DNA of 64,000 bases, from positions 124,001 through 188,000 of IMG/VR virus record IMGVR_UViG_3300029267_004162; one strand, given 5' to 3'. The stretch comes from a virus. Position 1 is the first letter of the stretch, and each line of letters begins with the position of its first letter. Under the pieces are notes generated by a model. The model had not been told where the DNA came from and did no database searches. It worked only from the letters and a program-made list of their open reading frames with translations. A program made the position numbers and the translations under genes. Positions 19,811 through 42,048 of this stretch are shown here, piece by piece.

Positions 19811-19815
19811 GGTAG

Positions 19816-20465: not shown

Positions 20466-20471
20466 TCTTGG

Positions 20472-20705
20472 TTAATAACGAATCCAAAAACCGCCTTGAT
20501 AGTAGACATATCCCCACCATGACATCTGTTGTCGGACACTGCGATTGGGTCGAATATTCTGGTTGGGACGGGGACGAGGCCGGACCAAAACTGCCCCATT
20601 ACTGAGAGTTTGACTTGATCGTTTTTCGAGCAACTTCAAACCTTCGATGATCTGACCAGACCGGTTTAAGCGACACCGTCCCGTTTTACCTTTCCCAATC
20701 GACAT
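20472..20705 (-). CDS. hypothetical protein, 77 aa
   Basis: The C-terminus is rich in Arg, Pro and aromatic residues (VRPRPRPNQNIRPNRSV, then SWWGYVYYQGGFWIRY). ATG 20705 follows AGGAG by five bases. No family is recognised; it ends just upstream of the tRNA. Confidence 0.5.
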   Translation of the reverse strand: MSIGKGKTGRCRLNRSGQIIEGLKLLEKRSSQTLSNGAVLVRPRPRPNQNIRPNRSVRQQMSWWGYVYYQGGFWIRY

Positions 20706-20713
20706 AATCTCTC

Positions 20714-21238: not shown

Positions 21239-21470
21239 TATCGTTCTCCGAACCAACGTTGCTTTGCTTTTTACACTCAATAATTGGTCGCGGTACTCCT
21301 TCTAATCCAGGTTTGATCTCGTCTTCGTACCGAGGAACAGGGGCGGGGTGGCCATCAAGAAGTACCCAATACGTGTTGGTAATTGTCGCCTGACCTACTT
21401 CTGTGATTATTCCAGGACACCACGAGTTATCCTGTTTCTTTACAAGAACTCTTTGATCGACCTCATACAT
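21231..21470 (-). CDS. hypothetical protein, 79 aa (SH3/Tudor-like)
   Basis: The N-terminal part (VDQRVLVKKQDNSWCPGIIT) has the spacing of small SH3- or Tudor-like domains that bind nucleic acid or peptides. ATG 21470 lies six bases after GGAGG. It sits just downstream of the NAD-dependent ligase gene, overlapping the next gene by 8 bp. Confidence 0.5.
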   Translation of the reverse strand: MYEVDQRVLVKKQDNSWCPGIITEVGQATITNTYWVLLDGHPAPVPRYEDEIKPGLEGVPRPIIECKKQSNVGSENDNV

Positions 21471-21481
21471 ATTTCTCCTCC

Positions 21482-23356
21482 TCACTCTACTGATCGGAGA
21501 AAATCTTCTTCTCCGATTACGGTCGTACCCAATTTTCGAGCTTTTTGAGCTTTGGTGCTGGTACTGTTGGGGTCAGCCATTACCAAGTAATCAAGACCCT
21601 TTGACACGCTGCCCTTGACTTCTCCACCATTCTGCTCCACCAGAGCTTGTAATTCCTTTCGAGGACGACTAGCGGCACCAGTGAAACAATAAGATTTCCC
21701 AGCCAAGGAACCACCCACGACTTCTTCCTTCTCAGCTTCTACCACCGTTACGGTCAACAGCCTTGATAGGTTGGTAAGCGTGTTCTTTCGACCCTGAATC
21801 CCTCGTGCAATGGTTTTAGCCTTAGTTTCTTGGAAACCAGGAAACTCCAGTAATTGTTCCTCAGTCAGAGCGAGAAATTTATCCACCGTGTCTACACCAA
21901 GGGATACGAGATTAGCCGCTTCAGTACGACCTAACATATGAATAGACACTGAACCCACCAAGTCGTGCAAATCACACTTCCGAGATTTATCTAGTTCTCG
22001 CATGATCTTCGCGGCCATCTTTTTTCCAACGCCTGCGTCAACCAAATCAGAAGTAGACATTTTGTACAACTTCGTAACCGTTCTGATGCCGGCTCCCCAC
22101 AGTTGAGCCAAAGTCTTATCCCCGATGTAGAGGATATTCCTAGCCTTAATCCATCTGTGTAACCTAGCCATTAAAACATCTTCGCATTTCCCCGGACGGG
22201 CACATTTTAATAATGGCCCGACTTGTTTGATAGGCCCGCCACAGCTTGGGCATTTTTTACAGGTGATGACCTTTCTGGTTTTACCCTTCCTGACTCGACG
22301 AACACAATAGGGAATCACATCCCCAGATCGGATCACTTCAATGGTATCCCCTATCTGCACATCCAACCGTTTGATCTCGGCTTGATTGTGAAGAGTCACG
22401 CTGGTTATGGTAGTACCCCCAACTGCCACCGGCTGAACCTTCCCAACCGGGGTTAAGCGACCCTGAGAACCCACCTGCCAATCGACTCGGTCCAAAACCG
22501 TATGACCACCTTGTGGAGGAAATTTCCACGCCCTAGCCCAGTACGGACGGCCATGCCTCTCACCAAGATGCTCTTGTTGAGTTAGAGAATCGACCTTCAC
22601 CACCGCCCCATCGATCTCAAAACGATTGGAGTCCCGCGAAGCCAGGATTTTAGCATATGCCTTCTTGGCACCTGCAAAGTCACAGGACACGGTGGATACC
22701 GCATCGAATCCATGATCCTGCAACCACTTGATCTTCCGAGTTTCAGTGGGAAGATCAACCCCCACAAGATCGAACGCAACGCATCGAATGCTAGCAGCCC
22801 CCACAGCGTCTAGCCTTCTGACCAGACCAGCCGCAGCATTCCTGGGGTTGGATTTCCCAGAAAAATTCTGCTTCCATTCTTTGATCGGCAGCAACGCCTC
22901 ACACCTAACCGATACAGACAGGGACGATGACAACTTCTTAGGGAGACCTTTTGCCTTCCGGATCGTGTGAGTGACGTTTTCTCCGATTGCCCCATCCCCT
23001 CGCGTGACGGCACGTACGAATTTGCCCCGTTCATAGATCAACTCAATACTGATACCATCCAGTTTATCCTGAACAACCAGAGCGGGAGTTTTCATCGCCA
23101 GCAACCGGTACCACTTGATGAATTCCCCTTCCGAGTGAAGATTGTTCAATGAACCCATTGGGATCTGATGCTGGGTCTTCTCCAGCGGGGAGTCCACGCT
23201 CGGCGTGGCCCCAATCTCCTTTAGAAAGGGGTTTCCAGGGTCTTCTTTCTGCAGGGACGCCCGGAGTTCATCGAAACGCGCATCGGACATGACGGGAGAG
23301 CCATCATAATAGGCCTGTGAGGCTGAACGCAATAGCCGCTCTAGTTTCGCTTCCAT
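21482..23356 (-). CDS. ligA: NAD-dependent DNA ligase
   Basis: It seals nicks using NAD. The 624-residue protein has all usual parts: a short Ia-like N-terminus, an adenylation domain with Lys98 in DKLDG, RGDG, EIDGAVVKVD and WKFPP, an OB fold, a four-Cys zinc finger (CKKCPSCG...C...C), helix-hairpin-helix repeats and a C-terminal BRCT domain (YCFTGAASRPRKEL). It is slightly shorter than host LigA (about 670). A second, ATP-type ligase is encoded at 34.0 kb. Confidence 0.96.
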   Translation of the reverse strand: MEAKLERLLRSASQAYYDGSPVMSDARFDELRASLQKEDPGNPFLKEIGATPSVDSPLEKTQHQIPMGSLNNLHSEGEFIKWYRLLAMKTPALVVQDKLDGISIELIYERGKFVRAVTRGDGAIGENVTHTIRKAKGLPKKLSSSLSVSVRCEALLPIKEWKQNFSGKSNPRNAAAGLVRRLDAVGAASIRCVAFDLVGVDLPTETRKIKWLQDHGFDAVSTVSCDFAGAKKAYAKILASRDSNRFEIDGAVVKVDSLTQQEHLGERHGRPYWARAWKFPPQGGHTVLDRVDWQVGSQGRLTPVGKVQPVAVGGTTITSVTLHNQAEIKRLDVQIGDTIEVIRSGDVIPYCVRRVRKGKTRKVITCKKCPSCGGPIKQVGPLLKCARPGKCEDVLMARLHRWIKARNILYIGDKTLAQLWGAGIRTVTKLYKMSTSDLVDAGVGKKMAAKIMRELDKSRKCDLHDLVGSVSIHMLGRTEAANLVSLGVDTVDKFLALTEEQLLEFPGFQETKAKTIARGIQGRKNTLTNLSRLLTVTVVEAEKEEVVGGSLAGKSYCFTGAASRPRKELQALVEQNGGEVKGSVSKGLDYLVMADPNSTSTKAQKARKLGTTVIGEEDFLRSVE

Positions 23357-23403
23357 TTCTTTCTCCTACCCCATTAACCACAAGAGGGGCTTTTTGTCAA
23401 GTA

Positions 23404-23637
23404 TCAGCCACCCATTTCTAGGTTAAGTAACCCCAGGTCGACCCCGGCGTCGAGTGCCTCGATCCAATGATACATTTGAGTCGTGGTCAAACGCGGCCCA
23501 ATATCGCGAAGCCCACCTTCAGGACTCTGTAGGACAATGCGTGGACGGTTGGCCGTCCAATCAAACCGCAGGTCAAGGCCAGTTTTGTTGCATACAACGT
23601 TTAGTGCTTGTTCAATGTCGGCTCTGGTTCTTCTCAT
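23404..23637 (-). CDS. hypothetical protein, 77 aa
   Basis: ATG 23637, seven bases after GAGG, overlaps the upstream stop. The sequence (LDLRFDWTANRPRIVLQSPE) is alpha/beta and resembles small phage proteins of unknown role. Nothing more can be said. Confidence 0.5.
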   Translation of the reverse strand: MRRTRADIEQALNVVCNKTGLDLRFDWTANRPRIVLQSPEGGLRDIGPRLTTTQMYHWIEALDAGVDLGLLNLEMGG

Positions 23638-23921
23638 CTTGATTCCTCCTCGGTTGGCACGGTGTCTCGATCTGAACCACAATCGGGATCAAACTTTGCC
23701 CAGTGCGTCACTTTGTCTTGCGTTCTCTGATCTAACCGCTGCCATGCGTTAGACAATTGATTAGGACCACCGAACGAACCATCGGGCGTTTCTGGCATGG
23801 GGCTATCATCACGTACCATTGCAGCCCACAACGCACGATACGTTGTATCATCTGTACCTGCTTTGGTACACTCGGCGATTTGGTCCAACGTCCAATCAGC
23901 CCAATTCTCAGGATAACTCAT
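23634..23921 (-). CDS. hypothetical protein, 95 aa
   Basis: An acidic, Trp-rich helical protein (WADWTLDQIAEC). It is coupled to both neighbours by 4-bp overlaps. No family is recognised. Confidence 0.5.
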   Translation of the reverse strand: MSYPENWADWTLDQIAECTKAGTDDTTYRALWAAMVRDDSPMPETPDGSFGGPNQLSNAWQRLDQRTQDKVTHWAKFDPDCGSDRDTVPTEEESR

Positions 23922-24538
23922 GCCGATCCCTCTTTATCGTACTCCCGTTTCCGCCATTCCTCAACCAAATCAATCACGGCCTCGCCCAACTCGCGGTCTG
24001 CGTATCTCAGCGAGATAGATAAGGTTCCCTCCCCGTGACACTGCACTTCATGGTATGGAAAAGGCGTGCGCAACATCTCCGAAGAACGAGACAACTCAGC
24101 CCCGGCGATGCGATTCCTGGTAGCGTTGACGAGTTCCTCAAGATCAGAGGTATACGCGTTATGTGCAGTAACACGATTGGTAACGGTTTCCCAAGCGGAA
24201 TCGAAATCAGGCAGAAACCGGCGGGAAACATCTCTGGATATGGCTTCTGGAGAACGAGTAGCTGCGACAGTAATAGAAACGTTGATGTCCATGTGATGGT
24301 GGGAATTACCGGTTCCCGTTGGCCAATCTCCATCGATCACGAGACGGCTTGGCTTTCTCCACTCAGGACGGATGATAAAGTGTCGTTCAGCGAGATCGAC
24401 AAAAACTGCTCCCCACATAGAACCCACGCTTTTCACGAGGATCTTTAGTGCGAAACATCCACCAGAAGCCTTGGCGATGGCCGCGTAAAACTTACGACAG
24501 GCTGCCTTGTTGTGACCCACGTCGAACATGCTGCTCAT
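23918..24538 (-). CDS. hypothetical protein, 206 aa
   Basis: ATG 24538 with AGAGG six bases upstream overlaps the previous stop (ATGA); a longer frame would overlap that gene by 130 bp. The protein has a Cys/Ala-rich start, an HHHMDINVSITVAA stretch and a charged helical end. No family is recognised. Confidence 0.5.
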   Translation of the reverse strand: MSSMFDVGHNKAACRKFYAAIAKASGGCFALKILVKSVGSMWGAVFVDLAERHFIIRPEWRKPSRLVIDGDWPTGTGNSHHHMDINVSITVAATRSPEAISRDVSRRFLPDFDSAWETVTNRVTAHNAYTSDLEELVNATRNRIAGAELSRSSEMLRTPFPYHEVQCHGEGTLSISLRYADRELGEAVIDLVEEWRKREYDKEGSA

Positions 24539-25068
24539 CTCAATCCTCTCAGTACCGTTGATGCCCCGAATTTGAAAGGCCGGCCATCTTGGCGAACGGC
24601 CAGTATTGGATAGCGTCTGGCTTTTATCGACAAACCAGTAATGGTGTACGTGTTTCCACGACACGTGAAAGAACGTCCCAGCATCTCAGGTTCCAGTCCG
24701 TGGGATTTGGCGTGTGCCCGGAAGTACCCTGCTTCTGGAGTCAGGACCGTACCATCCGACTCTACCACAGATATATCGAGTTTGAATGAACACGATGTTG
24801 GGCTGAAACGGGCGGAGCCCAATACCACTGATACTCCCCAGCAGTGTTCGAATTCAGCAAGAGCCTCCTGCAAAGCGGGCCGCATCAACTGTACTACGCT
24901 ACGATCCAAATGTTCCAGCGCTCGTGCTCGAATTTCACTCCCTGAAAAGAGAGCGACATAACCGTCCTCGAATTCGACGCGGTACTGCTTCCCTACTACC
25001 GCAGTAATCACGCCCGGAAAGAACTGGCCCTCATACGGAGCCTTCACCAGTTGTCCTGTTTTAAACAC
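24535..25068 (-). CDS. conserved phage protein with KOW/Tudor-like N-terminus, 177 aa
   Basis: Residues 1-50 (QLVKAPYEGQFFPGVITAVV) look like an SH3-type barrel. The end (GLEPEMLGRSFTCRGNTYTI, PILAVRQDGRPFKF) matches a small domain found in many phage proteins of unknown role. It starts at GTG 25068. Confidence 0.55.
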   Translation of the reverse strand: MFKTGQLVKAPYEGQFFPGVITAVVGKQYRVEFEDGYVALFSGSEIRARALEHLDRSVVQLMRPALQEALAEFEHCWGVSVVLGSARFSPTSCSFKLDISVVESDGTVLTPEAGYFRAHAKSHGLEPEMLGRSFTCRGNTYTITGLSIKARRYPILAVRQDGRPFKFGASTVLRGLR

Positions 25069-25246
25069 ATTCCTTCTCCTGATTCGCCATAGCAGCAGAA
25101 AGGAGCGGACTCAGGGTTATTCCTCTTCTATGGCAGTGCTGCGCAAAGAAGAACAACGCTCCTCGGAAATCAGCTCGCTCTACTGCTCGCCTAAAACGGC
25201 GGTTCACTCTGCCATAGTAATGCTCGACAATGACTCCAATTTGCAT
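25061..25246 (-). CDS. small basic protein, 61 aa
   Basis: ATG 25246 follows GAGG by six bases. It is Arg/His-rich and helical. It overlaps the next gene by 8 bp. No family is recognised. Confidence 0.45.
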   Translation of the reverse strand: MQIGVIVEHYYGRVNRRFRRAVERADFRGALFFFAQHCHRRGITLSPLLSAAMANQEKECV

Positions 25247-25257
25247 GCGATTCCTCA

Positions 25258-25524
25258 CTAAAAAGCACCCTTGCTCTGAACGACTGTAATCTGGAATTCA
25301 CTGCCATCAGCCAACGTGAGAACGAAACCAGCGTCTTTCGTCAAGACCACAGCCGCCTCGAACGATCTGGCGTGCAAAATTTGGCTGAACCGATTGTCAT
25401 CACAGATGGCATCCATTGCATCCTCAATGTCTATCGGATCGGTATTGAGGTCCACATCGACCATTTGCTCAAACACTTGTTCCATCGTCTCAGCGACGTG
25501 TGTTGCTGTTATACCCAACACCAT
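25258..25524 (-). CDS. hypothetical acidic protein, 88 aa
   Basis: The open frame extends far upstream through a terminator and another gene, but only the part from ATG 25524 is likely real: GGAGGAG lies just before it and composition changes to a normal acidic protein (MEQVFEQMVDVDLNTD). No family is recognised. Confidence 0.6.
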   Translation of the reverse strand: MVLGITATHVAETMEQVFEQMVDVDLNTDPIDIEDAMDAICDDNRFSQILHARSFEAAVVLTKDAGFVLTLADGSEFQITVVQSKGAF

Positions 25525-25532
25525 TCTCCTCC

Positions 25533-25561
25533 AAAAGGGGCGGGGTACTTCACCCCGCCCC
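25533..25561 (-). terminator. intrinsic terminator after the F5/8C lipoprotein gene
   Basis: On the minus strand a perfect 9-bp GGGGCGGGG/CCCCGCCCC stem with a 7-nt loop is followed by TTTT. It begins 12 bp after the lipoprotein stop at 25574 and precedes the next gene, so it separates two transcription units. Confidence 0.85.
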
Positions 25562-25573
25562 ACGAACAATACA

Positions 25574-26803
25574 CTAGCGAGTGAACACGAACTCGTCCAG
25601 GAGCAACCAGCGACCCTTGGGGCCAGCAGTAAACTCCACCTGACAGTAACGGCCACGCCCATCAACTGCGATTTGAGTGAAGGACGAGCCCGTAACGGCT
25701 CGTTCATCAGCAGTGGGCTCATACGACAGACCATCTGACCAATTCTGGCCATCATCACTGAAACTAACCACGGCTGAGCCGAACAACTCAACGCCACCAG
25801 CGGCCTGATTGTTGCAGTGAACCGCGACCTCGGACAGGGTGATTTCCTCACCAAAATCAAAAACGACTGCCATGGTACCGAACTTATCCCAGCCAACCCA
25901 GATGAGGGCGTCATCAGCGGTTTCGGTAAATTCACCAGGAGCCATCTCGTCCCAGATACCATCGATCAACTGACCCGTGCCACCACTGAGGTAGGCCCTG
26001 GCGACAGTGTTATCACCATCACCATCATAAGACGAATCAGCATGAGGCAGATTGGGCCACCAGCCCTGATCTCCATTGTGCATGGCGTAGCTGATTGGGA
26101 CAGCAGCAATAACTTCTTCGGCGGCAGCTTCACGAGCAATCGCGTTGTCCCACGTTACCTGAAACTCCACCAGGAGCGGACCAGCTTCATCCCAAATCAC
26201 CATAGGGTGAGATACGAACAGGTACTGCTCACGCGTAAACGTCATCTCATAGCGATACTGAGAATGCTCATCATCCCAGCCGATCAGTTGAGGCTGCGTA
26301 AACTTGCACTCCTCAGTTGAGTCATCAGGGTAAACGCCGATTACCGCGACTGCGATTTCCTCCTGGTACTCAGGTTCAAAGACCAACTGCGTCGGACACC
26401 AGATCGTGAAAGTCTGGTCATCACCCGGCGAGAACAATCCTTCTTCCTTCGAAGAAGAAATGTACTGCTTGGTGATGTACCCTTCATATTCCACATCCTT
26501 CACCCAGTTCCCGGATTCCGTTCCAGCGGGCGGCTCAACAAACACGGTACTGCGAATACCGGGCTCAGGGCCAAACGGGTTCCCAATGATCTCCTCGGGC
26601 TCAGCCTCGTCCTTCCCCCTCATCAAAGGTGCGGCAGGGGGTTCAGCAGCGGGGGGTTCAGCTACCAGTGCAGTAACACCGGCTACGGTTGAATCTATCC
26701 CCAGGGTGTTGAGCAAACCTTTCATGCTCTCCACGTCCTCAGGAAGACAACCAGTGAGACAAATTCCCAATACGACGACGACGGCGGCAAATTGCTTCTT
26801 CAT
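25574..26803 (-). CDS. predicted lipoprotein with C-terminal F5/8-type-C-like domain
   Basis: The N-terminus has a type II signal peptide ending in the lipobox LTGC, so the mature protein should be lipid-anchored at Cys. A Pro/Ala-rich linker follows. The last about 160 residues (AVVFDFGEEITLSEVAVHCN, VSFSDDGQNWS, GRYCQVEF) look like a discoidin/F5-8C sugar-binding fold. ATG 26803 lies six bases after GGAG. The CLPED sequence after the lipobox recurs in the lipoprotein at 28.4 kb. A surface or periplasmic role, for example in superinfection exclusion or adhesion, is inferred. Confidence 0.8.
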   Translation of the reverse strand: MKKQFAAVVVVLGICLTGCLPEDVESMKGLLNTLGIDSTVAGVTALVAEPPAAEPPAAPLMRGKDEAEPEEIIGNPFGPEPGIRSTVFVEPPAGTESGNWVKDVEYEGYITKQYISSSKEEGLFSPGDDQTFTIWCPTQLVFEPEYQEEIAVAVIGVYPDDSTEECKFTQPQLIGWDDEHSQYRYEMTFTREQYLFVSHPMVIWDEAGPLLVEFQVTWDNAIAREAAAEEVIAAVPISYAMHNGDQGWWPNLPHADSSYDGDGDNTVARAYLSGGTGQLIDGIWDEMAPGEFTETADDALIWVGWDKFGTMAVVFDFGEEITLSEVAVHCNNQAAGGVELFGSAVVSFSDDGQNWSDGLSYEPTADERAVTGSSFTQIAVDGRGRYCQVEFTAGPKGRWLLLDEFVFTR

Positions 26804-26919
26804 CTTACGCTCCATTCAGGTCCACGAAACAGAATCACGACAGGGCCTGTCCTCCAGGGGAGCATATAGTGGCGATTGTTTCTCCTCTCTTTCTCTGTCA
26901 GTGTGAAAGGCTACCCGAC

Positions 26920-27195
26920 CTAGGCCGGACACGCATAGCGGTCTCCATCAACTCTCCATGTGCTCTTCCCATCACCCACTCGGACCATAGGTCCATCCTC
27001 CGCTCGAATGTCATCATGTTTGATAGACGTAATCTTCACTTTGACGTACTGACCGTCAATGTAAGTGATGGCCTCCTGCCCTCGCTTCAAAGTAGCGAAC
27101 TTCTTAAAAACTTGTTCCCAAAATGCGAAATCCCCCTCCGCGAACTTCACGTAGGCAGGAGAAATTGCAAGGGCTTGCTCTCTCGTGATAACCAT
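26920..27195 (-). CDS. hypothetical protein, 91 aa
   Basis: ATG 27195 follows GGAG by six bases. The second half (EAITYIDGQYVKVKITSIKH) is a beta-rich segment, the first half helical. No family is recognised. The 115 bp between this gene and the next lipoprotein gene hold no clear signal. Confidence 0.5.
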   Translation of the reverse strand: MVITREQALAISPAYVKFAEGDFAFWEQVFKKFATLKRGQEAITYIDGQYVKVKITSIKHDDIRAEDGPMVRVGDGKSTWRVDGDRYACPA

Positions 27196-27212
27196 ATCAG
27201 TCTCCACACCTC

Positions 27213-27431
27213 CTAGTCGAACAGATTGAACAGAAAACCTAAACCCCCATCGTTCCCACGATCATCATAGTAGTAGTCATCATAACGATGACCACGGTCA
27301 CGGTTGTCATAGTCAATATCAACCCAATAACCCCCGCGATCCTCCCCGAAGTTGATGGCCACATCATCACATCCACAGCAGCCGAATGCGACAACGACGA
27401 GCAACGACAGACAGCACAAAGTCTTCTTCAT
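27213..27431 (-). CDS. small predicted lipoprotein, 72 aa
   Basis: The signal peptide (MKKTLCCLSLLVVVAFG) leads to a CCGC lipobox region. The mature part is tiny and rich in Asp, Tyr, Arg and Gly (DYDNRDRGHRYDDYYYDDRG), probably disordered, ending in hydrophobic GFLFNLFD. It is one of four lipoprotein genes in this accessory region. Confidence 0.7.
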   Translation of the reverse strand: MKKTLCCLSLLVVVAFGCCGCDDVAINFGEDRGGYWVDIDYDNRDRGHRYDDYYYDDRGNDGGLGFLFNLFD

Positions 27432-27447
27432 GGTAATCCCTTTCGGT

Positions 27448-27615
27448 TCACATTTGGTCGGTGTCTTCTTCTGATTCTTGGCAGTCAGGACACAAGTCCC
27501 GATCTGGGGTACAAGACCACCCGAACACCTCAGCCTGTAGAGGCTCGGTTACATCTTCTGGGAACAAGGTACGACAGTGTTCGCCATCACACCTCAGTTG
27601 TCGGTCTTCGATCAT
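27448..27615 (-). CDS. zinc-ribbon miniprotein, 55 aa
   Basis: ATG 27615 sits after GGAGGAG. Four cysteines in CDGEHC...CTPDRDLCPDC form a likely zinc site. The longer open frame upstream overlaps another gene and has an artefactual composition, so it is not used. Confidence 0.6.
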   Translation of the reverse strand: MIEDRQLRCDGEHCRTLFPEDVTEPLQAEVFGWSCTPDRDLCPDCQESEEDTDQM

Positions 27616-27649
27616 GATGCTCCTCCACCCAAGTGAATCATAGGCGAAA

Positions 27650-27928
27650 TCATTTGATTTCCTCCTCCACCATAGGACCAATATTGGCCCATTCAGCGGC
27701 AAACGCCGCACGAGCCTCCACCGGACAAGCAGCGAAGATCGACTTGCTCTGCTCCCACGAGATGCTCCAGTCACTGGGTTGAGCCTTCTCGGGCAGCAGC
27801 GACAAATCATCCACCTCCAGAATTGTCTGCCACAGCAGGAACAGACCTTCCATCGGGGACTTGGTGATCTGCTTGGTAATCGCTCGCAAATCTTTAGCGG
27901 AAAACTCAACGTGTTGTGCAATCTTCAT
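27650..27928 (-). CDS. hypothetical protein, 92 aa
   Basis: ATG 27928 directly follows the previous gene and has an AGGTG-type site. The protein is helical with a Trp-rich centre (SDWSISWEQSKSIF). No family is recognised. Confidence 0.5.
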   Translation of the reverse strand: MKIAQHVEFSAKDLRAITKQITKSPMEGLFLLWQTILEVDDLSLLPEKAQPSDWSISWEQSKSIFAACPVEARAAFAAEWANIGPMVEEEIK

Positions 27929-27929
27929 T

Positions 27930-28220
27930 CTATTCACCTCCGAATAGGTCAGAGAGTTTCTCCAAGTACCCCGCCGTACAGCACTCCCGGCTGATGACAA
28001 AATCCTCGAAAGCCTGCTCGGCCATCGGACTCGTTTGAACCTCAACCACGAGGTTGGCATCTTCCCCTAGGCGGGTAATGAGCTTTATATGTTCCATCAC
28101 CTTCGCGATAGAAGAAGAGACGAACCCATCCGTGTCTAGTTGTGGCCACTCTACCAGACACTCCCATAGACCGTCCCGGTAGTAATCCACTACGATTTTT
28201 ATAGTGTTGTCATCGGACAT
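27930..28220 (-). CDS. hypothetical acidic protein, 96 aa
   Basis: ATG 28220 follows GGAG by six bases; a longer frame would run into the tRNA-Leu. The sequence begins like a small beta-alpha domain (IKIVVDYYRDGLWECLVEWP), similar in feel to HicB-type antitoxin folds, but no partner toxin is seen. Function is unknown. Confidence 0.5.
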   Translation of the reverse strand: MSDDNTIKIVVDYYRDGLWECLVEWPQLDTDGFVSSSIAKVMEHIKLITRLGEDANLVVEVQTSPMAEQAFEDFVISRECCTAGYLEKLSDLFGGE

Positions 28221-28255
28221 CACATTCTCCATTTGGCGATCCATGGTTAGGACAC

Positions 28256-28330
28256 TGGCCACGATGGGACTTGAACCCACACTGGACGGATTTTAAATCC
28301 GTTGCCTCTGCCGAATTGGGCTACGTGGCC
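28256..28330 (-). tRNA. tRNA-Leu (UAA anticodon), short variable loop
   Basis: Acceptor GGCCACG/CGTGGCC, D arm with GCCCAATTCGGCAGAGGC, anticodon stem ACGGA/TCCGT around TTTAAAA (anticodon TAA), and T arm GTGGG/CCCAT. The discriminator is A and no CCA is encoded. Bacterial tRNA-Leu normally has a long variable arm; here it is only 5 nt (CCAGT), which is odd for leucine. Confidence 0.9.
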
Positions 28331-28377
28331 TCCCCGATGCCCCAACAAGGGGCATCGGTTTTTCTAGTCAGCGACGA

Positions 28378-29139
28378 TCACATCCCCTTGTTCCAAGCCA
28401 TGGCGAACACATCAGCGTAATCAGCATCACGGGGATCAGACATTTCAATGAACTGATACTCCAGGTACGTGGCAGCACGATCTTCCATGGTCAGCTCATA
28501 GTAGAGCAGTCCATTCTCTGACCAGCTCTCGATCTTGATATCCAATGCTTCGATCTTGGTGATGTTCATGTCTTCGTCCATGACGGCTCCAAAACCACCA
28601 TCCCAACACTGGGAGTATTGGAATTCCAGCGGAACATTGGATTCAATCACTACCACCGAACTCTCATGGTTATTGCCCGCGAAACCAAGGAACCAATCAT
28701 CGGGCTCACCATCATCATCACAGTCGTTCCAATAGTCGTTCAGGTCGAAGATCACGACCTCACGCTCCACATTTGAGTAATCCACCGGAGCGTTCTCAGC
28801 CTCAGCCTCAGCGTTGTTCTCAGCCTCAGCCTCAGCGTTGTTCTCAGCCTCAGCCTCAGCGTTCTCAGCCTCAGCGTTCTCAGCCTCGAAACCATCGGAC
28901 GACTCAATCGTGGGGACTACGCCCGACTCGCCAGCATCAGCAAAACGGACACCCGGTTCAGCAACAGTAGCAGGACCCTCGGTGATGTACGTGTTGGTCA
29001 CGTTGTTAATAACGTTGGTCGTCACGTTGGCGTCGGCGTGAACATCAACCAGGCCATCCAGACTGCCATCCTCGGGCAGACAACCTACGACACAGAGAGC
29101 AGAAACAGCAACAGCAACAGCACAGTAATTGCGAAACAT
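28378..29139 (-). CDS. predicted lipoprotein with AEAEN repeats
   Basis: The signal peptide ends in VVGC followed by LPEDG, as in the 25.6 kb lipoprotein. A Thr/Asn-rich stretch (NVTTNVINNVTNTYI) and a low-complexity acidic linker of AEAEN repeats lead to a C-terminal domain of about 120 residues (VFDLNDYWNDCDDDGEPDDW...). ATG 29139 follows GGAG by six bases. The linker suggests a folded domain held away from the membrane. Its function is not recognised. Confidence 0.75.
   Translation of the reverse strand: MFRNYCAVAVAVSALCVVGCLPEDGSLDGLVDVHADANVTTNVINNVTNTYITEGPATVAEPGVRFADAGESGVVPTIESSDGFEAENAEAENAEAEAENNAEAEAENNAEAEAENAPVDYSNVEREVVIFDLNDYWNDCDDDGEPDDWFLGFAGNNHESSVVVIESNVPLEFQYSQCWDGGFGAVMDEDMNITKIEALDIKIESWSENGLLYYELTMEDRAATYLEYQFIEMSDPRDADYADVFAMAWNKGM
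28791..28888. repeat. in-gene tandem repeat (AEAEN linker)
   Basis: Units built from ttctcagcctcagcctcag recur about every 24-27 bp inside the lipoprotein gene. They are multiples of three, so the reading frame is kept and copy number could vary by slippage, changing the length of the acidic linker. Confidence 0.8.
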
Positions 29140-29213
29140 GTCATTCTCCACTCGGCGATAAACCTATTTTGTTACGACCCAACACAAACGTGATTCAGTT
29201 GGCTTTGGCTGCC

Positions 29214-29495
29214 CTACTTGGGCTTCACGGCCTCAGGATTCTTCCCTCTCACATATCGCGTAGCGGTGTACTGCTCAGGTCGAACCTCGACACATCTTAG
29301 TTTGAGATCACCCACAAACTGCCTGTGATAGTCAACCCAGGTCAACCTGTAGTACCGATCCGAGGCGATGTGCCGCACGACCTTTGCATAGGTCGTTGCA
29401 TAACGGTCCTCATCAGTAGCGTACGCTTGCAAAACTACTTCATATCCCTTGACATCCTCATCATCGATTAGGGCGTTCTTTTCAGCGAGTCTCAT
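29214..29495 (-). CDS. hypothetical protein, 93 aa
   Basis: ATG 29495 lies behind GAGG. The sequence is charged and alpha/beta with no known motif. It is the second gene after the promoter at 29770-29798. Confidence 0.5.
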   Translation of the reverse strand: MRLAEKNALIDDEDVKGYEVVLQAYATDEDRYATTYAKVVRHIASDRYYRLTWVDYHRQFVGDLKLRCVEVRPEQYTATRYVRGKNPEAVKPK

Positions 29496-29523
29496 GTTTT
29501 CATCCTCTCTCAGTTACCCCGGA

Positions 29524-29551
29524 AAACGCGCCCGGAGCTACAGCTCCCGGA
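29524..29551 (-). terminator. weak terminator-like hairpin
   Basis: GGAGC-TGTA-GCTCC on the minus strand overlaps the end of the 53-aa gene and is followed after a few bases by TTTT. The stem is short, so it may attenuate rather than stop transcription. Confidence 0.3.
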
Positions 29552-29699
29552 TGGATACCAAATCTCGACCGACCACGCGATAAAGCGTACAACTGCCACC
29601 TTCGGCTTGATGTTGCCAGTTCCGCACGCAACCCGCGACAACAACCACGTCACGGTGAGCGGCAACACACACTCCCTCGGAGTTCAGAGCAAAAAACAT
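29538..29699 (-). CDS. small protein, 53 aa
   Basis: MFFALNSEGVCVAAHRD... runs from ATG 29699, with AAGGAA five bases upstream, to TAG. It is the first gene after the promoter at 29770-29798. The sequence is beta-rich with two Cys in the second half; no family is recognised. It is too short for usual gene-finding limits. Confidence 0.6.
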   Translation of the reverse strand: MFFALNSEGVCVAAHRDVVVVAGCVRNWQHQAEGGSCTLYRVVGRDLVSIREL

Positions 29700-29769
29700 A
29701 GCGGTTCCTTATCGGCGACTGTCTCTCAAACCTGGACGCAGGGTGGGGTACTGAACCCTACCCACTAGT

Positions 29770-29798
29770 AGTATAGCAATCAGGAGAGGTTCTGTCAA
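29770..29798 (-). promoter_or_regulatory. sigma-70-type promoter P1 (leftward)
   Basis: On the minus strand TTGACA (29793-29798) and TATACT (29770-29775) are separated by exactly 17 bp. Transcription would begin near 29763, so the first RNA bases can form the GGGTA/TACCC hairpin. It would drive the 53-aa gene and the lipoprotein region to its left. Confidence 0.85.
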
Positions 29799-29840
29799 GT
29801 CCTTTTTTGACCTCCTTGACCCCCCAGGAGAGGCCAGAAA

Positions 29841-29894
29841 GGGCCACGTTATAGGACGTTCCAGGACGTTCCAGAACGTCCTATAACGTGGCCC
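29841..29894. repeat. perfect 21-bp inverted repeat with 12-nt loop
   Basis: Arms at 29841-29861 and 29874-29894 (GGGCCACGTTATAGGACGTTC and its complement) match perfectly. It lies upstream of P1. It could be a transcription stop for the right-hand unit, a protein operator, or a hairpin origin element. The related copy B keeps pairing through compensating changes. Confidence 0.9.
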
Positions 29895-29954
29895 AGAGAA
29901 GCCCAGAAAGGGGGTATCCAGAGAAGCCCAGAAAAGGGGTATCCAGAGAAACCC
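29895..29954. repeat. 25-bp tandem repeat, 2.4 copies
   Basis: Two units of agagaagcccagaaag plus ggggtatcc, differing at one base, and a partial third follow the inverted repeat directly. They are absent from copy B. Their role is unknown; iterons or slippage products are possible. Confidence 0.75.
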
Positions 29955-29964
29955 ATGGAAAATG

Positions 29965-29981
29965 GTGGGAATCGAACCCAC
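29965..29981 (-). other. orphan tRNA T-arm-like hairpin
   Basis: GTGGG-TTCGATT-CCCAC is a perfect T arm followed by CATTTTCC, but no matching acceptor, D or anticodon arm lies upstream. It may be a tRNA remnant or serve as a terminator hairpin after the gene ending at 30008. Confidence 0.4.
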
Positions 29982-30007
29982 ACCCCCCCAGCCGAGGCCA
30001 GTGACAG

Positions 30008-30388
30008 TCAGATCCTGGCAATGTCACCTGGGTACTCACCGGTTTCTTCACCCCAAAGACGACGAGGCGCCAGTTGAGTCCCATTCCAGTTGTAGTCAGC
30101 CCCACATTCGCAGGTAGAGGTGAAGCCCGCACAACATACGGTTTCACCACAATCACACTTGACTTCTACCCACCCCGGAACCCTCTGGTCGAAGTCTCGA
30201 ACCTCGTGCTCAAGAATACCTCCACACTCACACTTCATACCGATTTGCTTGCGATTATCGGGAAATTCTAGTTCCACCTTGTCATCAACCGTGTGGATGA
30301 TGGTCACGCCACAGCCACAATCCTCGCACATGGCACTTTCACTATGATGTTGGCGATACTGGTCATCAACGATACGTATTTCAGACAT
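30008..30388 (-). CDS. zinc-binding phage protein, 126 aa
   Basis: Several Cys pairs (CEDCGC, KCECGG, KCDCGETVCC, STCECG) indicate two small metal sites. The end LAPRRLWGEETGE is a motif I recognise from uncharacterised phage proteins. ATG 30388 lies six bases after GAGGAGG. Its function is unknown. Confidence 0.6.
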   Translation of the reverse strand: MSEIRIVDDQYRQHHSESAMCEDCGCGVTIIHTVDDKVELEFPDNRKQIGMKCECGGILEHEVRDFDQRVPGWVEVKCDCGETVCCAGFTSTCECGADYNWNGTQLAPRRLWGEETGEYPGDIARI

Positions 30389-30399
30389 CAACAACCTCC

Positions 30400-30678
30400 T
30401 CAAACTCTGTCTTGCTCTGCGAGATAGGCGGCGTAGCAGTCAGGACACGCATCACTAATCGTCTGATCCAGCGGAACCAACCGCCTACAACGAACACAGT
30501 TGATTCTGAGAGAAGAGCCAACTGCTTTTTCCCAACGAGGGATATGAAGGATTGTTTTCTCTCCTCCAAACGTGGTGACTGTAACATGAGCGGCAGGCCC
30601 TTCCCGTTCCACTTCGATGGACTGGATTCCTTGATCCTGCAAGAAGGCCAGGACGGCATCAAGTTGGGTGGCTGACAT
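30400..30678 (-). CDS. zinc-ribbon protein, 92 aa
   Basis: The N-terminal helix-strand part is followed by CVRCRR...CPDC, a four-Cys ribbon. GGAG lies upstream of ATG 30678. It lies between two other accessory genes; its function is not recognised. Confidence 0.55.
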   Translation of the reverse strand: MSATQLDAVLAFLQDQGIQSIEVEREGPAAHVTVTTFGGEKTILHIPRWEKAVGSSLRINCVRCRRLVPLDQTISDACPDCYAAYLAEQDRV

Positions 30679-30681
30679 GGA

Positions 30682-31245
30682 TCAGTTCTCCTGGTATTCC
30701 ACAAAGTCCCGGTACATGCCACCATCTCGGATAGACACGGTGTCTTCGGTCAGCAGAGCACCATTCATGTAGATGCTCACAGTAACCTCGGTGTACCCGA
30801 TTTCATCCTCGAAAGGATAACCAGCAGACAACTGAAACTGGTACAGCGATTCGTCTTCGCAGTATCCCTGCCGGAAACCAAACGCCACCTTCCCAGATTC
30901 ACCATCGCGGGGGTAGGGCGTTCCATCGGAGTCCATCACCCAAAGTTGCATGGGAACGATCTCGTCCCACTCAAACGCGAAGTAGAGGTCATATCCCTCA
31001 GATGGATGCCCCTCCTCATCGTCGGCCAGGGTGTCATCGACATCACCGGCAACCGCTCCCGTATCGGCGGTTACGTTACCGATTGACACGTTAGAGTTAT
31101 CTCCAACCTCGATATTGAAGACATTCGTCGCCACGTCGGTGTCCACGGTCGTATCAAGGCCCAGTTCAACTGGAACGTCTCCAGCGATCGGACAGCCACC
31201 AAGAACGACACACAGCATCAGATTTAGCAGAACGATTGCTCTCAT
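30682..31245 (-). CDS. predicted lipoprotein, 187 aa
   Basis: The signal peptide ends in LGGC, a lipobox. The mature start has a Thr/Val/Asp/Asn-rich linker (DTTVDTDVATNVFNIEVG) resembling that of the 28.4 kb lipoprotein. A C-terminal beta-rich domain follows (WDEIVPMQLWVMDSDGTPYP). It belongs to the lipoprotein cluster. Confidence 0.75.
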   Translation of the reverse strand: MRAIVLLNLMLCVVLGGCPIAGDVPVELGLDTTVDTDVATNVFNIEVGDNSNVSIGNVTADTGAVAGDVDDTLADDEEGHPSEGYDLYFAFEWDEIVPMQLWVMDSDGTPYPRDGESGKVAFGFRQGYCEDESLYQFQLSAGYPFEDEIGYTEVTVSIYMNGALLTEDTVSIRDGGMYRDFVEYQEN

Positions 31246-31248
31246 CGG

Positions 31249-31464
31249 TTACTCTCCTCTCAATTCCCAGCCTTTTTGGAACCCCTCGCAGTACGCTTGG
31301 AACCAAATTTCCGCCTTCGAAGTTGCGTGATCGTAACTCATCTCATAATCCACAACCCAACCCCATTGTGGGTCTTTCCGGCATTGCGGATTAAGCGAGG
31401 CGGAGTTTGGGTGCATCGCGATATGCTTTGCGACCGCTTCACTTGCACATGACAGGGTTCTCAT
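31249..31464 (-). CDS. hypothetical protein, 71 aa
   Basis: A helical protein with an aromatic end (EIWFQAYCEGFQKGWELRG). Its ATG overlaps the stop of the upstream zinc-ribbon gene by 4 bp. No family is recognised. Confidence 0.5.
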   Translation of the reverse strand: MRTLSCASEAVAKHIAMHPNSASLNPQCRKDPQWGWVVDYEMSYDHATSKAEIWFQAYCEGFQKGWELRGE

Positions 31465-31628
31465 GCTTTATCCTCTCGCCCCGGTTCCGGTTTCACTTCG
31501 GGCTCTTCTTTGGGGGAGTTGCAATTCGGACAATGCGTAGTCTCAGGTGCTGCGAAGAACTGAAAGTAGCACCCACTGCATCGCACTAATGGCGAATTGC
31601 GACATGGTAAAAACTTAACGGTCTGCAT
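31461..31628 (-). CDS. zinc-ribbon miniprotein, 55 aa
   Basis: ATG 31628 is preceded by AAAGGA. Two Cys pairs, CSGC and CPNC, form a zinc ribbon, followed by a charged Pro/Glu tail. It is coupled to the next gene by ATGA. It is below common length cut-offs and easily missed. Confidence 0.65.
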   Translation of the reverse strand: MQTVKFLPCRNSPLVRCSGCYFQFFAAPETTHCPNCNSPKEEPEVKPEPGREDKA

Positions 31629-31670
31629 AGTGATCCTTTCTGGTCGTTAACATTCATCATCTGCTCCGAT

Positions 31671-32009
31671 TCATTCCCAAGGGAACTTCCCGCAGCGTTC
31701 CACACAATCTTGTAACTCCCGTCTAATCTGACGGACACGTTCTCGGGACAAGCCATGCTTCTTGGCGAGAGTGGCACCCTGGCCCTGCTCCATTCCCAGG
31801 ATATCGGCTACGATTCCAGGGTGGTTCCGTTCGATTTTGCCAAACGGGGTGGTTATACCACGTTGAGGTAGTAAATCCCGATAAAGAACTGCCAACTTCT
31901 TCACGACCTCAGCCATGCCTTGGGATACGTCCCATTGCTCGGCGATCTCCCTGCATGAGAGGGAAAGGATGCCCGGCTCGCGGGCCAGTTTATCTACGGT
32001 TGTAGTCAT
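31671..32009 (-). CDS. sigma region-4-like helix-turn-helix protein, 112 aa
   Basis: The end LAKKHGLSRERVRQIRREL is the DNA-binding helix-turn-helix of sigma-70 region 4.2, which normally reads the -35 box. An earlier helical segment (CREIAEQWDVSQGMAEVV) may be a second HTH. There is no region 2, so it is not a full sigma factor. It could be an anti- or co-sigma regulator or a repressor acting on the -35 boxes of the promoters nearby. ATG 32009 is used (GGAGG lies 11 bases upstream, rather far). Confidence 0.65.
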   Translation of the reverse strand: MTTTVDKLAREPGILSLSCREIAEQWDVSQGMAEVVKKLAVLYRDLLPQRGITTPFGKIERNHPGIVADILGMEQGQGATLAKKHGLSRERVRQIRRELQDCVERCGKFPWE

Positions 32010-32050
32010 CTGTTTGCACACCTCCTATACTCCTGACGGGTGAGCCTGAA

Positions 32051-32083
32051 AACGAACCTCGTTCGAGCGGGGTTTTGTTCGTT
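32051..32083. terminator. possible bidirectional terminator
   Basis: AACGAAC (32051-32057) pairs with GTTCGTT (32077-32083), enclosing CTCG-TT-CGAG and a T-rich tail. It follows the gene ending at 32127 and precedes the sigma-like gene. Confidence 0.4.
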
Positions 32084-32126
32084 TGGCTCCAACGTTACGA
32101 AAATTAGGGGTTGGCGACCCGTCCAC

Positions 32127-32489
32127 TCAATCAGTTCTCAGTGGCGTCCATTCACCACTCAGAAGGAGCATTAGACACCCTTCATCACCTTCGAGGTTTA
32201 AGATACCATCGAGTTGGCGAACCCATCCATCTTCTAACCATTGTTCTTGGCTGGTGGGCGGCGTTTCAGAGTCGGGGTCATACTCACTACAAACTGGGTA
32301 GATTCTCGTAGGGTCAAACTCTACCGTTTCTGCCGTTGCCAACGCTTCTTGTGCTTTCTTCGCCGATAGTTTCTCTTGTGCTTGTGCACTAACACTTCGA
32401 AGATGTACTAGTAAATTGGCAGCGCTGGCTCCCAGCTGCCTTCGCAAGCGGGGCCGACCGGCAGGATCATTCTTATCGTTGTGCTTCAT
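32127..32489 (-). CDS. hypothetical protein, 120 aa
   Basis: It is the first gene after promoter P2. It has a basic, Ala/Lys-rich N-terminal half and an acidic second half ending in a beta-strand stretch (EGCLMLLLSGEWTPLR). No family is recognised. An early role is inferred from the strong promoter. Confidence 0.55.
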   Translation of the reverse strand: MKHNDKNDPAGRPRLRRQLGASAANLLVHLRSVSAQAQEKLSAKKAQEALATAETVEFDPTRIYPVCSEYDPDSETPPTSQEQWLEDGWVRQLDGILNLEGDEGCLMLLLSGEWTPLRTD

Positions 32490-32600
32490 TGTGATTCTCC
32501 TCGGCGAGGTAGAGCGAATGGAAAACGCCCGGCCCCGACCGGACTGGGACTACCACGGACGGGACGACGCGAGGTGGGGTACTGAACCCTACCCACTAGT

Positions 32601-32629
32601 AGTATAGCAATCAGGAAGGCTCGTGTCAA
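32601..32629 (-). promoter_or_regulatory. sigma-70-type promoter P2 (leftward)
   Basis: TTGACA-type box (tgtcaa at 32624-32629) and TATACT (32601-32606) with a 17-bp spacer on the minus strand. It would drive the 120-aa gene at 32127. It is divergent from the plus-strand promoter 150 bp away. Confidence 0.85.
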
Positions 32630-32671
32630 GTCCTTTTTTGACCTCCTTGACCCCCAGGAGAAGGTCAGAAA

Positions 32672-32725
32672 GGGACACGTTATCGGACGTTCTAGAACTT
32701 CTAGGAACGTCCGATAACATGCCCC
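32672..32725. repeat. 21-bp inverted repeat, copy B (19 of 21 pair)
   Basis: Arms are 32672-32692 and 32705-32725 around a 12-nt loop that is itself near-palindromic (TAGAACTTCTAG). Compared with copy A, one arm position and its partner have both changed so that pairing is kept. Confidence 0.85.
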
Positions 32726-32777
32726 TTGGGGGGCTCCCCTTGGGGGTATATTCAAGACCAGCCTGGAAACCCGAGGG

Positions 32778-32807
32778 TTGACAGATACCCCCCTCTTGTG
32801 GTATAAT
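32778..32807 (+). promoter_or_regulatory. consensus sigma-70 promoter for the plus-strand operon
   Basis: TTGACA at 32778-32783 and TATAAT at 32802-32807, both perfect consensus, with an 18-bp spacer. It drives the only rightward genes in the window (32902-34601). Confidence 0.9.
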
Positions 32808-32845
32808 GGAAATAGGATCAACATAGGAAAACGGCCCGATACCCA

Positions 32846-32861
32846 GTGGGTGCTCACCCAC
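32846..32861 (+). promoter_or_regulatory. hairpin in the 5' leader of the plus operon
   Basis: GTGGGT-GCTC-ACCCAC forms a perfect 6-bp stem in the leader of about 90 nt, 40 bp before the start codon. It may stabilise the RNA or modulate translation. Confidence 0.5.
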
Positions 32862-32901
32862 CGACCGCAGTCCATGATGATCCGTGAGGAAGGAAGTACC
32901 C

Positions 32902-33741
32902 ATGCCTAAGAAGAAATCCGCCCCGAAATCCAAATCCGTAAAGAAGAAACCCACCCCTGGATCCATACTTGATCAACTAGAGGAGGCCGCACCCGCTCCC
33001 AAGAAGAAGATGCCCTCCAAACGGACTGCGCCAATCAAGACCCTCACCGAGGAACAGACCGTCGCAATAGCCAACCTCGCTCTGCTCACGAGTCGTGCCA
33101 AAGACTTAGACGCCCAGATTAAAGCTCTAAGGGCCGACCTGCATGAGGACATCCTAGAATGGTTCAACCAACGGTGTGAAGAAGACGGGGCGGCCCATTC
33201 CTCCGCTGATTTGGCCCCTCACCTAGAAACGAGTATGGCTTACGTTTTGAGCGTTCGTCCAGGATTCGACAGGAAAAGTCTGCGTGAATTCGTCAAGTCT
33301 ACCTTTGGGAAGGGGGCATCCAAGACCTGGAAAGCTTTAACCGAAGATGGGGGTCCGATTCAAATCACCGCTCTCCCACTAAAGCTAGACCAAGACCATG
33401 TTGCTCAAGTTATTTCCCAGCACCGGGGTGGAAGTGTGCTGAGTAAAAACAGTGGTCTGAGTGCTTCACAAATCAAACTCATGGGTGGCCGTCGAGTGAT
33501 TCTTGCCCTCAAACCACAGTTTGCGACCGGTGACAAAGTAGAACAGGTCGTAAAGGATCTGAAAGAGGCACTCGGGGATAAATTCGCCCAGTTTTTCGAA
33601 ATTGAGGTTGTTGTTGACGTTAGTGGAGATTTCCTCAAGAACAGAATCTCTTCCCAATCCGCATTAAGGGATGCCGCAAAACAGGCCATTGAAGTGGGCT
33701 GTGGTAAAGTTGTCCAGTACATCCGACCAGTGTCCAAATAA
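32902..33741 (+). CDS. basic N-terminal-tail protein, 279 aa
   Basis: The first about 45 residues are Lys/Pro/Ser-rich (MPKKKSAPKSKSVKKKPT), like a histone-type DNA-binding tail. A helical region (NLALLTSRAKDLDAQIKALR) and an alpha/beta C-terminal domain follow. ATG 32902 has AGGAAGG upstream. No family is recognised. A consensus promoter and first position suggest an early, abundant protein, perhaps nucleoid- or DNA-associated. Confidence 0.6.
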   Translation: MPKKKSAPKSKSVKKKPTPGSILDQLEEAAPAPKKKMPSKRTAPIKTLTEEQTVAIANLALLTSRAKDLDAQIKALRADLHEDILEWFNQRCEEDGAAHSSADLAPHLETSMAYVLSVRPGFDRKSLREFVKSTFGKGASKTWKALTEDGGPIQITALPLKLDQDHVAQVISQHRGGSVLSKNSGLSASQIKLMGGRRVILALKPQFATGDKVEQVVKDLKEALGDKFAQFFEIEVVVDVSGDFLKNRISSQSALRDAAKQAIEVGCGKVVQYIRPVSK

Positions 33742-33753
33742 GGGAGTGATCAC

Positions 33754-34026
33754 ATGGCTGCTAAGATATCGGATATGATCAAAGAAATGGACTTTTTTGA
33801 CTTGCGATCCTTAATGAACGCCGTCAAGGAAGAGATCAGTTTGCGAAAGAGCGCTGACCGCTTCGTAATCGGTCAGAACGTAATAGTAAGACTGGGGGAT
33901 GAAATCGAATACCTCGCTGTAGTCGTCGATCACCAGTCAACCCAAAAGATCAAGCTGGAATTCCCAGACGGAACAACCAAAATCGTCTTGGCACACCGCG
34001 CTAGACCAAATGTGGGAAAATCATGA
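33754..34026 (+). CDS. hypothetical protein, 90 aa
   Basis: Second gene of the plus operon. It has a helical N-terminus (MIKEMDFFDLRSLMNAVKEE) and an SH3-like C-terminus (IGQNVIVRLGDEIEYLAVVV). It overlaps the ligase start by 4 bp. Function is unknown. Confidence 0.6.
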   Translation: MAAKISDMIKEMDFFDLRSLMNAVKEEISLRKSADRFVIGQNVIVRLGDEIEYLAVVVDHQSTQKIKLEFPDGTTKIVLAHRARPNVGKS

Positions 34027-34601
34027 TCGCAATAACAGCCCTGCGACTCCCAGACAAACCTCAACGATGTACGACTGATGCTCTACATCGTTTGGATGAT
34101 GGGAGGCACGTAGCCCAGAAGAAATGGAATGGATGGCGGTGCGTTATCGTCTGGCAAAAACCCACATTACAAATCCTGTCCCGCTACAAGACCAGAACGA
34201 TCCCAATTTCTAAGTCGGCAAAGCAAGCAATCACCGCTATGTGTTTGCGTGCCAAGACCAAGGGACTTGTTCTGGATGCGGAGTACATGGGAATGAGGAG
34301 TGGAGCCCGTCGAGAAAGCGTGGTTCTGCTAGACGTGTTGTATCTCGAAGGGGTATGGCAAGGCAGCAAGCCATGGAATGAACGAGATGCCATGTTGCAA
34401 AGTCTACCGGTGTCTGCCCCCATACAACTGGTGGAGAATTTCTACACCGACTTCGCTGAAACGTATGCTCATCAACAACAAGATTCAGAAAGCGAGGGTC
34501 TCGTGATAAAGAGACTCAAGAGCAAACTGATCGGAGGAATCGATGGTTGCAAGAGGAATCCTCACTGGTTCAAGGTTAGGTACCGGGAGGATCAAGTATG
34601 A
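34023..34601 (+). CDS. ATP-type DNA ligase, adenylation-domain only
   Basis: The nucleotidyltransferase motifs are in order: motif I KWNG with Lys34, motif III VLDAEYMG, motif IV SEGLVIK and motif V WFKVR. At 192 residues it lacks a clear OB domain and is much smaller than known minimal ligases. Motif I has Asn where Asp is usual. It might seal nicks with a partner, or adenylylate RNA or DNA ends. The last 26 bp overlap the convergent FeoA-like gene. Confidence 0.75.
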   Translation: MIAITALRLPDKPQRCTTDALHRLDDGRHVAQKKWNGWRCVIVWQKPTLQILSRYKTRTIPISKSAKQAITAMCLRAKTKGLVLDAEYMGMRSGARRESVVLLDVLYLEGVWQGSKPWNERDAMLQSLPVSAPIQLVENFYTDFAETYAHQQQDSESEGLVIKRLKSKLIGGIDGCKRNPHWFKVRYREDQV

Positions 34602-40986: not shown

Positions 40987-42048
40987 TTAATCCGGGAGTT
41001 GCCTAAGTTCCACTTCATCATTTTTGGGGCCTGTTCCCAGCATCCACAGTTTACACCCGTGAGCATTTAGACACTGCTGCAGTTTTTCGTAAAAAGGCTC
41101 TGGGTCTGTTAGATAATTAACGAAATTCAAAAACATGTAATTTGGACGAACGTGTTGTAGGAATCTTTCTAGTTGCAAAAAGCTGAAATCAAAGACTCTC
41201 CGTACTCGACCTGTGACGGTCGTGTACTCTTCTATTTGTTGACCAATCTTTTCACTAAGGTGCGCCCAGGTTGTTTCTTCATGGTCTGAGTAATAGGGGC
41301 CTGAGGTCGATCCTTCCAGACTACCGACTCGAATGGGATAGGTTCGAATAATTCCTACTATGTCACCATAGTAATCTGGATGGGGTGGAATACCAGCGTT
41401 ATCAAAAGCACGTCCTACCAAACAATCCCGACTGGTGGTGTAGGGGTATTGATGCCCAAAGTTAATGCCGAGATCAAATCCTTGAGCAGTTTCAGAAATC
41501 ACCGCGGCCCCTGCCAACAAAGATTCTCTGACCAGTGTGCCAGTATCAGCAACAAATTTGGCAACACGCAGATCATGTTTAGCAATATTGCTATCTTTGG
41601 GGTCGCGCCGCATCTTACGTATCACGGCTTCAGCACTACCCTGCATGGTGGAACTGATACCAGTCAGTCTTTGTTTCTCAACGTCAGCATCAGCTTGTGA
41701 CAAGACACACGCACGAGGGTGAATAGCCAGGGTGAAATCTCCCCGTTCTTTTTGGGCCGCTGCAACTTCCATTAGTAGGCGATCCACGTCAAATACAGCA
41801 TGAGGTCCAATTATCACGGTGTGGACAGTGGGGAACCATGCGCCTACTGGCAAGGCTTTAGACACATGTTTTTCGCCGGAAACTGGGCCATAAAAAGAAT
41901 GGCCTGCATTGGGCATGTTGTCCCCAACTACTACAGAAACTTGGGGATTCTGCTCGAAGATAAAGGCCAGCAATTTGCCTTTACCGGTTGATCCCCATTG
42001 CCCGTCAATAACTATTGAAAACTTGCCTGTGGGAAACATACTCATCAT
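40987..42048 (-). CDS. purZ: PurZ-like adenylosuccinate synthetase homologue
   Basis: PurA joins IMP and Asp; phage PurZ uses dGMP to make the precursor of 2-aminoadenine (base Z). Residues 16-25 read GQWGSTGKGK, where PurA has GQWGDEGKGK: the catalytic Asp is Ser20, the substitution described for PurZ. Other family marks remain (NAGHS with His50, SSTMQGSAEAVIRKM, SETAQGFDLGINFGHQYPY). The 353-residue length is shorter than PurA (about 430) and close to PurZ. DatZ, MazZ and DpoZ partners are not visible here. Confidence 0.8.
   Translation of the reverse strand: MMSMFPTGKFSIVIDGQWGSTGKGKLLAFIFEQNPQVSVVVGDNMPNAGHSFYGPVSGEKHVSKALPVGAWFPTVHTVIIGPHAVFDVDRLLMEVAAAQKERGDFTLAIHPRACVLSQADADVEKQRLTGISSTMQGSAEAVIRKMRRDPKDSNIAKHDLRVAKFVADTGTLVRESLLAGAAVISETAQGFDLGINFGHQYPYTTSRDCLVGRAFDNAGIPPHPDYYGDIVGIIRTYPIRVGSLEGSTSGPYYSDHEETTWAHLSEKIGQQIEEYTTVTGRVRRVFDFSFLQLERFLQHVRPNYMFLNFVNYLTDPEPFYEKLQQCLNAHGCKLWMLGTGPKNDEVELRQLPD

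Follow-up and report, generated by a model that had tools for sequence, protein, structure and literature searches.

We analysed a window of 64,000 nt, corresponding to positions 124001–188000 of a virus record of 262,650 nt, in which two copies of a module of about 153 bp are located at 29742–29894 (copy 1) and 32573–32725 (copy 2). Both are oriented on the minus strand, as are nearly all genes in the region. One minus-strand operon ends at 30008 and the next starts at 29699, with copy 1 in the gap between them; the operon directly before copy 1 is the one downstream of copy 2. The first open reading frame after copy 1 (29538–29699, minus strand) encodes 53 aa and is followed by 29214–29495 and 28378–29151. 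The genes running from copy 2 toward copy 1 (30008–32489, minus strand) include 32127–32489 and a sigma-region-4-like helix-turn-helix (HTH) protein at 31671–32021, among others; the C-terminal helix of this protein resembles sigma region 4.2 (SRERVRQI), with a weak score below the Pfam cut-off. Immediately upstream of copy 2 there is no gene on the minus strand; this copy is located between its own promoter and a divergent consensus promoter on the plus strand (32778–32807, TTGACA-18-TATAAT) for the genes at 32884–34601, and minus-strand genes resume above 34.6 kb. The divergent promoter has a near-identical copy at genome positions 223363–223392 (plus strand), both reading TTGACAGATACCCCCCTCTTrTGGTATAATGGAAATAG, and this phage uses promoter cassettes repeatedly. 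The GC content of 16001–34000 is mostly higher (0.48–0.53) than that of its flanks (about 0.44–0.48).

Read on the minus strand, both modules contain, in the same order, a long inverted repeat (h3), the tract UUUCU, a second inverted repeat (h2), AAAAAAGGAC, a sigma-70 promoter (TTGACA-17-TATACT) whose -10 is preceded by TG, and an inverted repeat at the start site; all are minus-strand features except h2, which was assigned to neither strand. In copy 1, h3 (29841–29894) is directly followed by UUUCU (29836–29840), the imperfect repeat h2 (29799–29840; CTCCT at 29830–29826, AGGAGG at 29816–29811), the A-tract AAAAAAGGA (29800–29808), the promoter (29770–29798; extended -10 TGC, expected start near 29763) and the start-site repeat (29742–29764). 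The counterparts in copy 2 are h3 at 32670–32727, with a 21-bp core at 32672–32725, UUUCU after this core (32667–32671), h2 at 32630–32671 (CTCCT at 32660–32656, AGGAGG at 32647–32642), the UP-like A-tract AAAAAAGGA at 32631–32639, the promoter at 32601–32629 and the start-site repeat at 32573–32595. A 25-nt direct repeat (CCAGAGAAGCCCAGAAAGGGGGTAT) occurs two to three times immediately upstream of copy 1 (29893–29960) and is absent at copy 2.

The two copies, spaced 2831 nt apart, are 84% identical over 160 nt without gaps and 89% identical by BLAST, so that the pair of inverted-repeat modules described in the initial annotation is real. Positions 29742–29785 and 29793–29824, which contain the start-site hairpin, -10, -35 and A-tract, are unchanged between the copies, in agreement with the identical core promoter and start-site hairpin described there. 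On the transcribed strand that hairpin, identical in both copies, is a weak one (-8.3 kcal/mol, z -0.88); the opposite strand gives a stronger fold. The duplicated unit is bounded by the outer edge of h3 and by the start-site hairpin, which makes h3 part of the unit. The initial annotation had also proposed looking for further copies in the genome; when the module DNA was used to search the complete record, no third copy was found, and a covariance model of h3 recovered from the record only the two copies, each matched in reverse as well.

No relatives of the module were found in the phage, plasmid, viral-contig or genome-contig collections. The topoisomerase search returned one contig, which is identical over the 12.3 kb compared and ends at window position 36056; in IMG/VR, the topoisomerase alignment search gave nothing between 37% and 100% identity, the next topoisomerase being 37% identical. 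Searches with the ligase and the plus-strand gene found no relatives. The pattern CTCCT...AGGAGGTC...TTGACA had nine matches in viral contigs, of which eight lacked a -10 and the ninth was the identical contig. The comparison of the arms among relatives, as had been suggested, came down to an alignment of the two copies, the searched collections containing no usable relative. The locus is a real duplicated hairpin-promoter module in a large isolated phage.

The module promoters, which are of host type and predicted to be very strong, match the consensus at 11 of 12 positions, with a 17-nt spacer (within the 16–18 nt range), an extended -10 and a UP-like A-tract, and the promoter assignment of the initial annotation is supported. 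TTGACA-N15-19-TATAMT occurred seven times in the whole record, two of these being the modules, versus none in the reversed control. As in UP-element promoters of the rrnB P1 type, AAAAAAGGA adjoins a consensus -35; at about -45 to -37, it fits AAAAAARNR, the proximal alpha-CTD site (UP subsite) of rrnB P1 quoted in PMC2801614, but its register is off by about one base.

Upstream of the -35 lies the inverted repeat CTCCT...AGGAG (h2), which is absent from the initial annotation and folds better on the plus strand. A third promoter, at genome position 205931 (repeat region 205909–205959), also has a CTCCT...AGGAGG element; here CTCCT-N9-AGGAGGTC immediately precedes TTGACA and is nearer to it by exactly 10 bp (one turn) than in the modules. 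This promoter also carries a GGGTTGAACCC start-site repeat but has no h3, and the CTCCT/AGGAG spacing at the three promoters is 9, 8 and 9. Among the arguments for a putative protein-binding site upstream of the -35, this recurrence is the strongest.

The inverted repeat h3 is perfect over 21 bp in copy 1, with a 12-nt loop, and extends over 23 bp in copy 2, with two mismatches under Watson-Crick rules. When inverted repeats were scored (match +1, mismatch -2, loop up to 25) across the window and a further 60 kb of this genome, only the two h3 scored at least 12 in the window, and the best repeat in the additional 60 kb scored 12. In 1.52 Mb of DNA from distant phages, there were 11 inverted repeats of score at least 16 (loop up to 15), or one per 138 kb. 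Given this rate, two such repeats within 2.8 kb, each with an 11/12 promoter beside it (about 42 nt after h3), are far beyond chance. Rfam gave no match above the cut-off at the modules, and its low-score matches are attributable to chance.

For both h3 the more stable fold is that of the minus-strand RNA, in the direction of the promoter, with -44.7 kcal/mol versus -42.2 on the plus strand in copy 1 and -42.3 versus -33.8 in copy 2 (z about -12 for each minus-strand fold). The 12-nt loops do differ, as described in the initial annotation, but are not simply unpaired, since the minus-strand folds add three pairs in copy 1 and four in copy 2, giving duplexes of 24 and 27 pairs. These reach the length of about two turns or more expected of an RNase III site, and the folding energies are those of a stable hairpin, as expected of an intrinsic terminator.

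Five bases, in three pairs, differ between the h3 arms of the two copies. From copy 1 to copy 2, A-U became C-G, a fully compensated Watson-Crick swap, C-G became G.U with both sides altered, and C-G became U.G with one side altered, so that two pairs are altered on both sides in this comparison of two sequences. The initial annotation reported a single compensated change, but three pairs differ rather than one. All three stay paired on the minus strand only, and two break on the plus strand. The probability that all 21 pairs survive five random substitutions of copy 1 is 0.0008–0.008 on the minus strand (0.0008 with no transition bias and 0.008 with a fourfold bias; about double for either strand). 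A within-column shuffle gave 123/500, which is not exceptional and again compares two sequences only. Selection on h3 pairing, asserted in the initial annotation, is therefore suggestive only, because there are two copies and no usable relative, and because palindrome correction gives matched changes too; shared inheritance or such correction could explain the matched arm changes without selection.

We favour, with a probability of about 0.5, the reading that the module is a duplicated insulator, either a terminator or an RNA-processing hairpin, combined with an early promoter. Polymerase arriving from upstream would transcribe h3 into a 24- to 27-bp RNA hairpin, which would halt transcription at UUUCU or be cut by an RNase III-type activity, leaving a 3' end for the upstream message. 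Just downstream, the host sigma-70 polymerase would begin a new message at the near-consensus promoter, helped by the A-tract as a UP element and by the extended -10. At copy 1, the message from copy 2 would have its end at h3 and the next would begin at the promoter, and duplication of the cassette would give a pair of neighbouring operons, both of small unknown genes, the same kind of start. The anatomy of the module, its duplication and rarity, the quality of its promoter and the strand-specific pairing are directly observed, whereas transcription from the module sites, its early timing, and termination or cleavage at h3 are what we infer from the sequence.

This reading is supported by the minus-strand folding of h3 and the pairs kept there, the boundaries of the duplicated unit, the position of copy 1 between two operons, the seven promoters versus none in the control, and the T-rich tail, which in each copy is confined to the minus side. 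A terminator discriminant of the d'Aubenton Carafa type was positive at five sites in the window, two of which are the h3 hairpins, each on the minus strand, with values of 16.0 (copy 1) and 7.8 (copy 2); over 124 kb there were six positives in the real sequence versus four in the reversed one. The tail UUUCU has 4 T in 8, below the 5-T rule, and the positive discriminant comes mainly from stem energy. With this weak tail and six positives versus four, it is uncertain whether the tail could terminate transcription by itself; RNA cleavage at h3 would be an equal option. Because copy 2 lies between divergent promoters, its h3 could meet only antisense read-through or be an operator; as an insulator, it would have to block antisense transcription coming from minus-strand genes located above 34.6 kb. 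The weak U-tract and the position of copy 2 argue against a simple terminator, and the plus-strand preference of h2 and the third CTCCT...AGGAG promoter, without h3, also count against the insulator reading. It is quite doubtful that h3 is a dedicated phage insulator without a proper U-tract, relying for example on cleavage or on a phage factor and forming with strong promoters a unit that can be copied, in a large phage with probable 2-aminoadenine DNA. If the insulator reading is right, the early transcription map would be built from a duplicated cassette closing one message and opening the next, which would give a simple rule for operon borders in a large phage. Promoter, UP-like tract and hairpin are individually familiar, and the surprise is moderate.

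Several known systems share parts of this design. Terminator-promoter junctions separate tandem phage operons; as at such junctions, the module has a hairpin with a short T-rich tail and, within about 45 nt, a presumably strong sigma-70 promoter, between same-strand operons at copy 1, but its hairpin is much longer (24–27 bp), its T-tract is weak, the unit is duplicated and copy 2 is located between divergent promoters. The hairpins that RNase III processes in T7-type early messages resemble h3 as long RNA stems between transcription units, with cleavage of h3 being putative, whereas the T7 sites have internal loops and occur inside one long message. The put sites of HK022 are likewise two similar structured elements, each tied to an early promoter, but they lie downstream of the promoter that transcribes them, whereas h3 is upstream of its own. 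Within the literature collection searched, nothing was found on phage early promoters preceded by a hairpin.

Among the three functions proposed in the initial annotation, the terminator-promoter cassette fits best, and an operator is possible, though on the unlikely side. A phage or host protein would bind h3 or CTCCT...AGGAG in the DNA and control both operons together, with the HTH protein encoded in the copy 2 operon as a candidate regulator. The sharing of these elements by two promoters, the recurrence of CTCCT...AGGAGG one turn closer to the -35 at the third promoter, the sigma-4.2-like helix of the HTH protein and the location of copy 2 between divergent promoters, a usual operator position, are all consistent with this. 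However, the CTCCT/AGGAG spacing varies, 21-bp arms are long for an operator, the HTH match falls under the Pfam cut-off, and changes that keep G.U pairs are sensible for RNA, not for DNA half-sites.

We consider it improbable that h3 is functionless and that a palindromic promoter region was passively copied once, its matched arm changes arising by template switching (palindrome correction). The loops do change in concert, with two TTCCAG in copy 1 and two TTCTAG in copy 2, which looks like template switching, and there are only two copies and no relatives, but other parts of the module are strongly conserved; moreover, the window is otherwise almost devoid of long inverted repeats and encodes SbcC- and SbcD-like homologues of palindrome nucleases, so that two unselected palindromes would be unlikely to persist. 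Long palindromes also occur at some origins and recombination sites, yet a hairpin origin, attachment site or resolution site is very improbable here, as the modules show no sign change in GC skew and no iterons, each copy contains a consensus promoter, and the differing loops mean that the copies cannot recombine as identical cores. The hairpin origin was the one proposed function to find no support. Integron attC sites (no attC core) and type III toxin-antitoxin repeats (no repeats at copy 2) were dropped from sequence alone.

Elsewhere in the phage, the minus-strand gene at 40987–42048 encodes a PurZ-like protein with GSTGKGK, 37.7% identical to phiVC8 PurZ; its best solved-structure matches are 6fm1/6fko 'adenylosuccinate synthetase' (2e-59) and PurZ 7odx (3e-40), canonical PurA being far weaker. 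A family A DNA polymerase is encoded at genome positions 217034–218155, and because of these two proteins this 262-kb phage may have 2-aminoadenine DNA. GTP cyclohydrolase I and a phosphoribosyltransferase are encoded at 45669–46283 and 48263–48853 (both minus strand), and a 7-deazaguanine-type DNA modification is possible as well. The phage also carries a homologue of the transcription elongation factors GreA/GreB (47745–48305, minus strand). Beyond the final gene of the copy 2 operon, a tRNA T-arm-like hairpin, GTGGGTTCGATTCCCAC followed by CATTTTCC, is located at 29965–29981 (minus strand); no whole tRNA was found. At 25537–25561 (minus strand), a strong GC hairpin with TTTT directly precedes GGAGGAGAATG, placing a hairpin at a ribosome-binding site.
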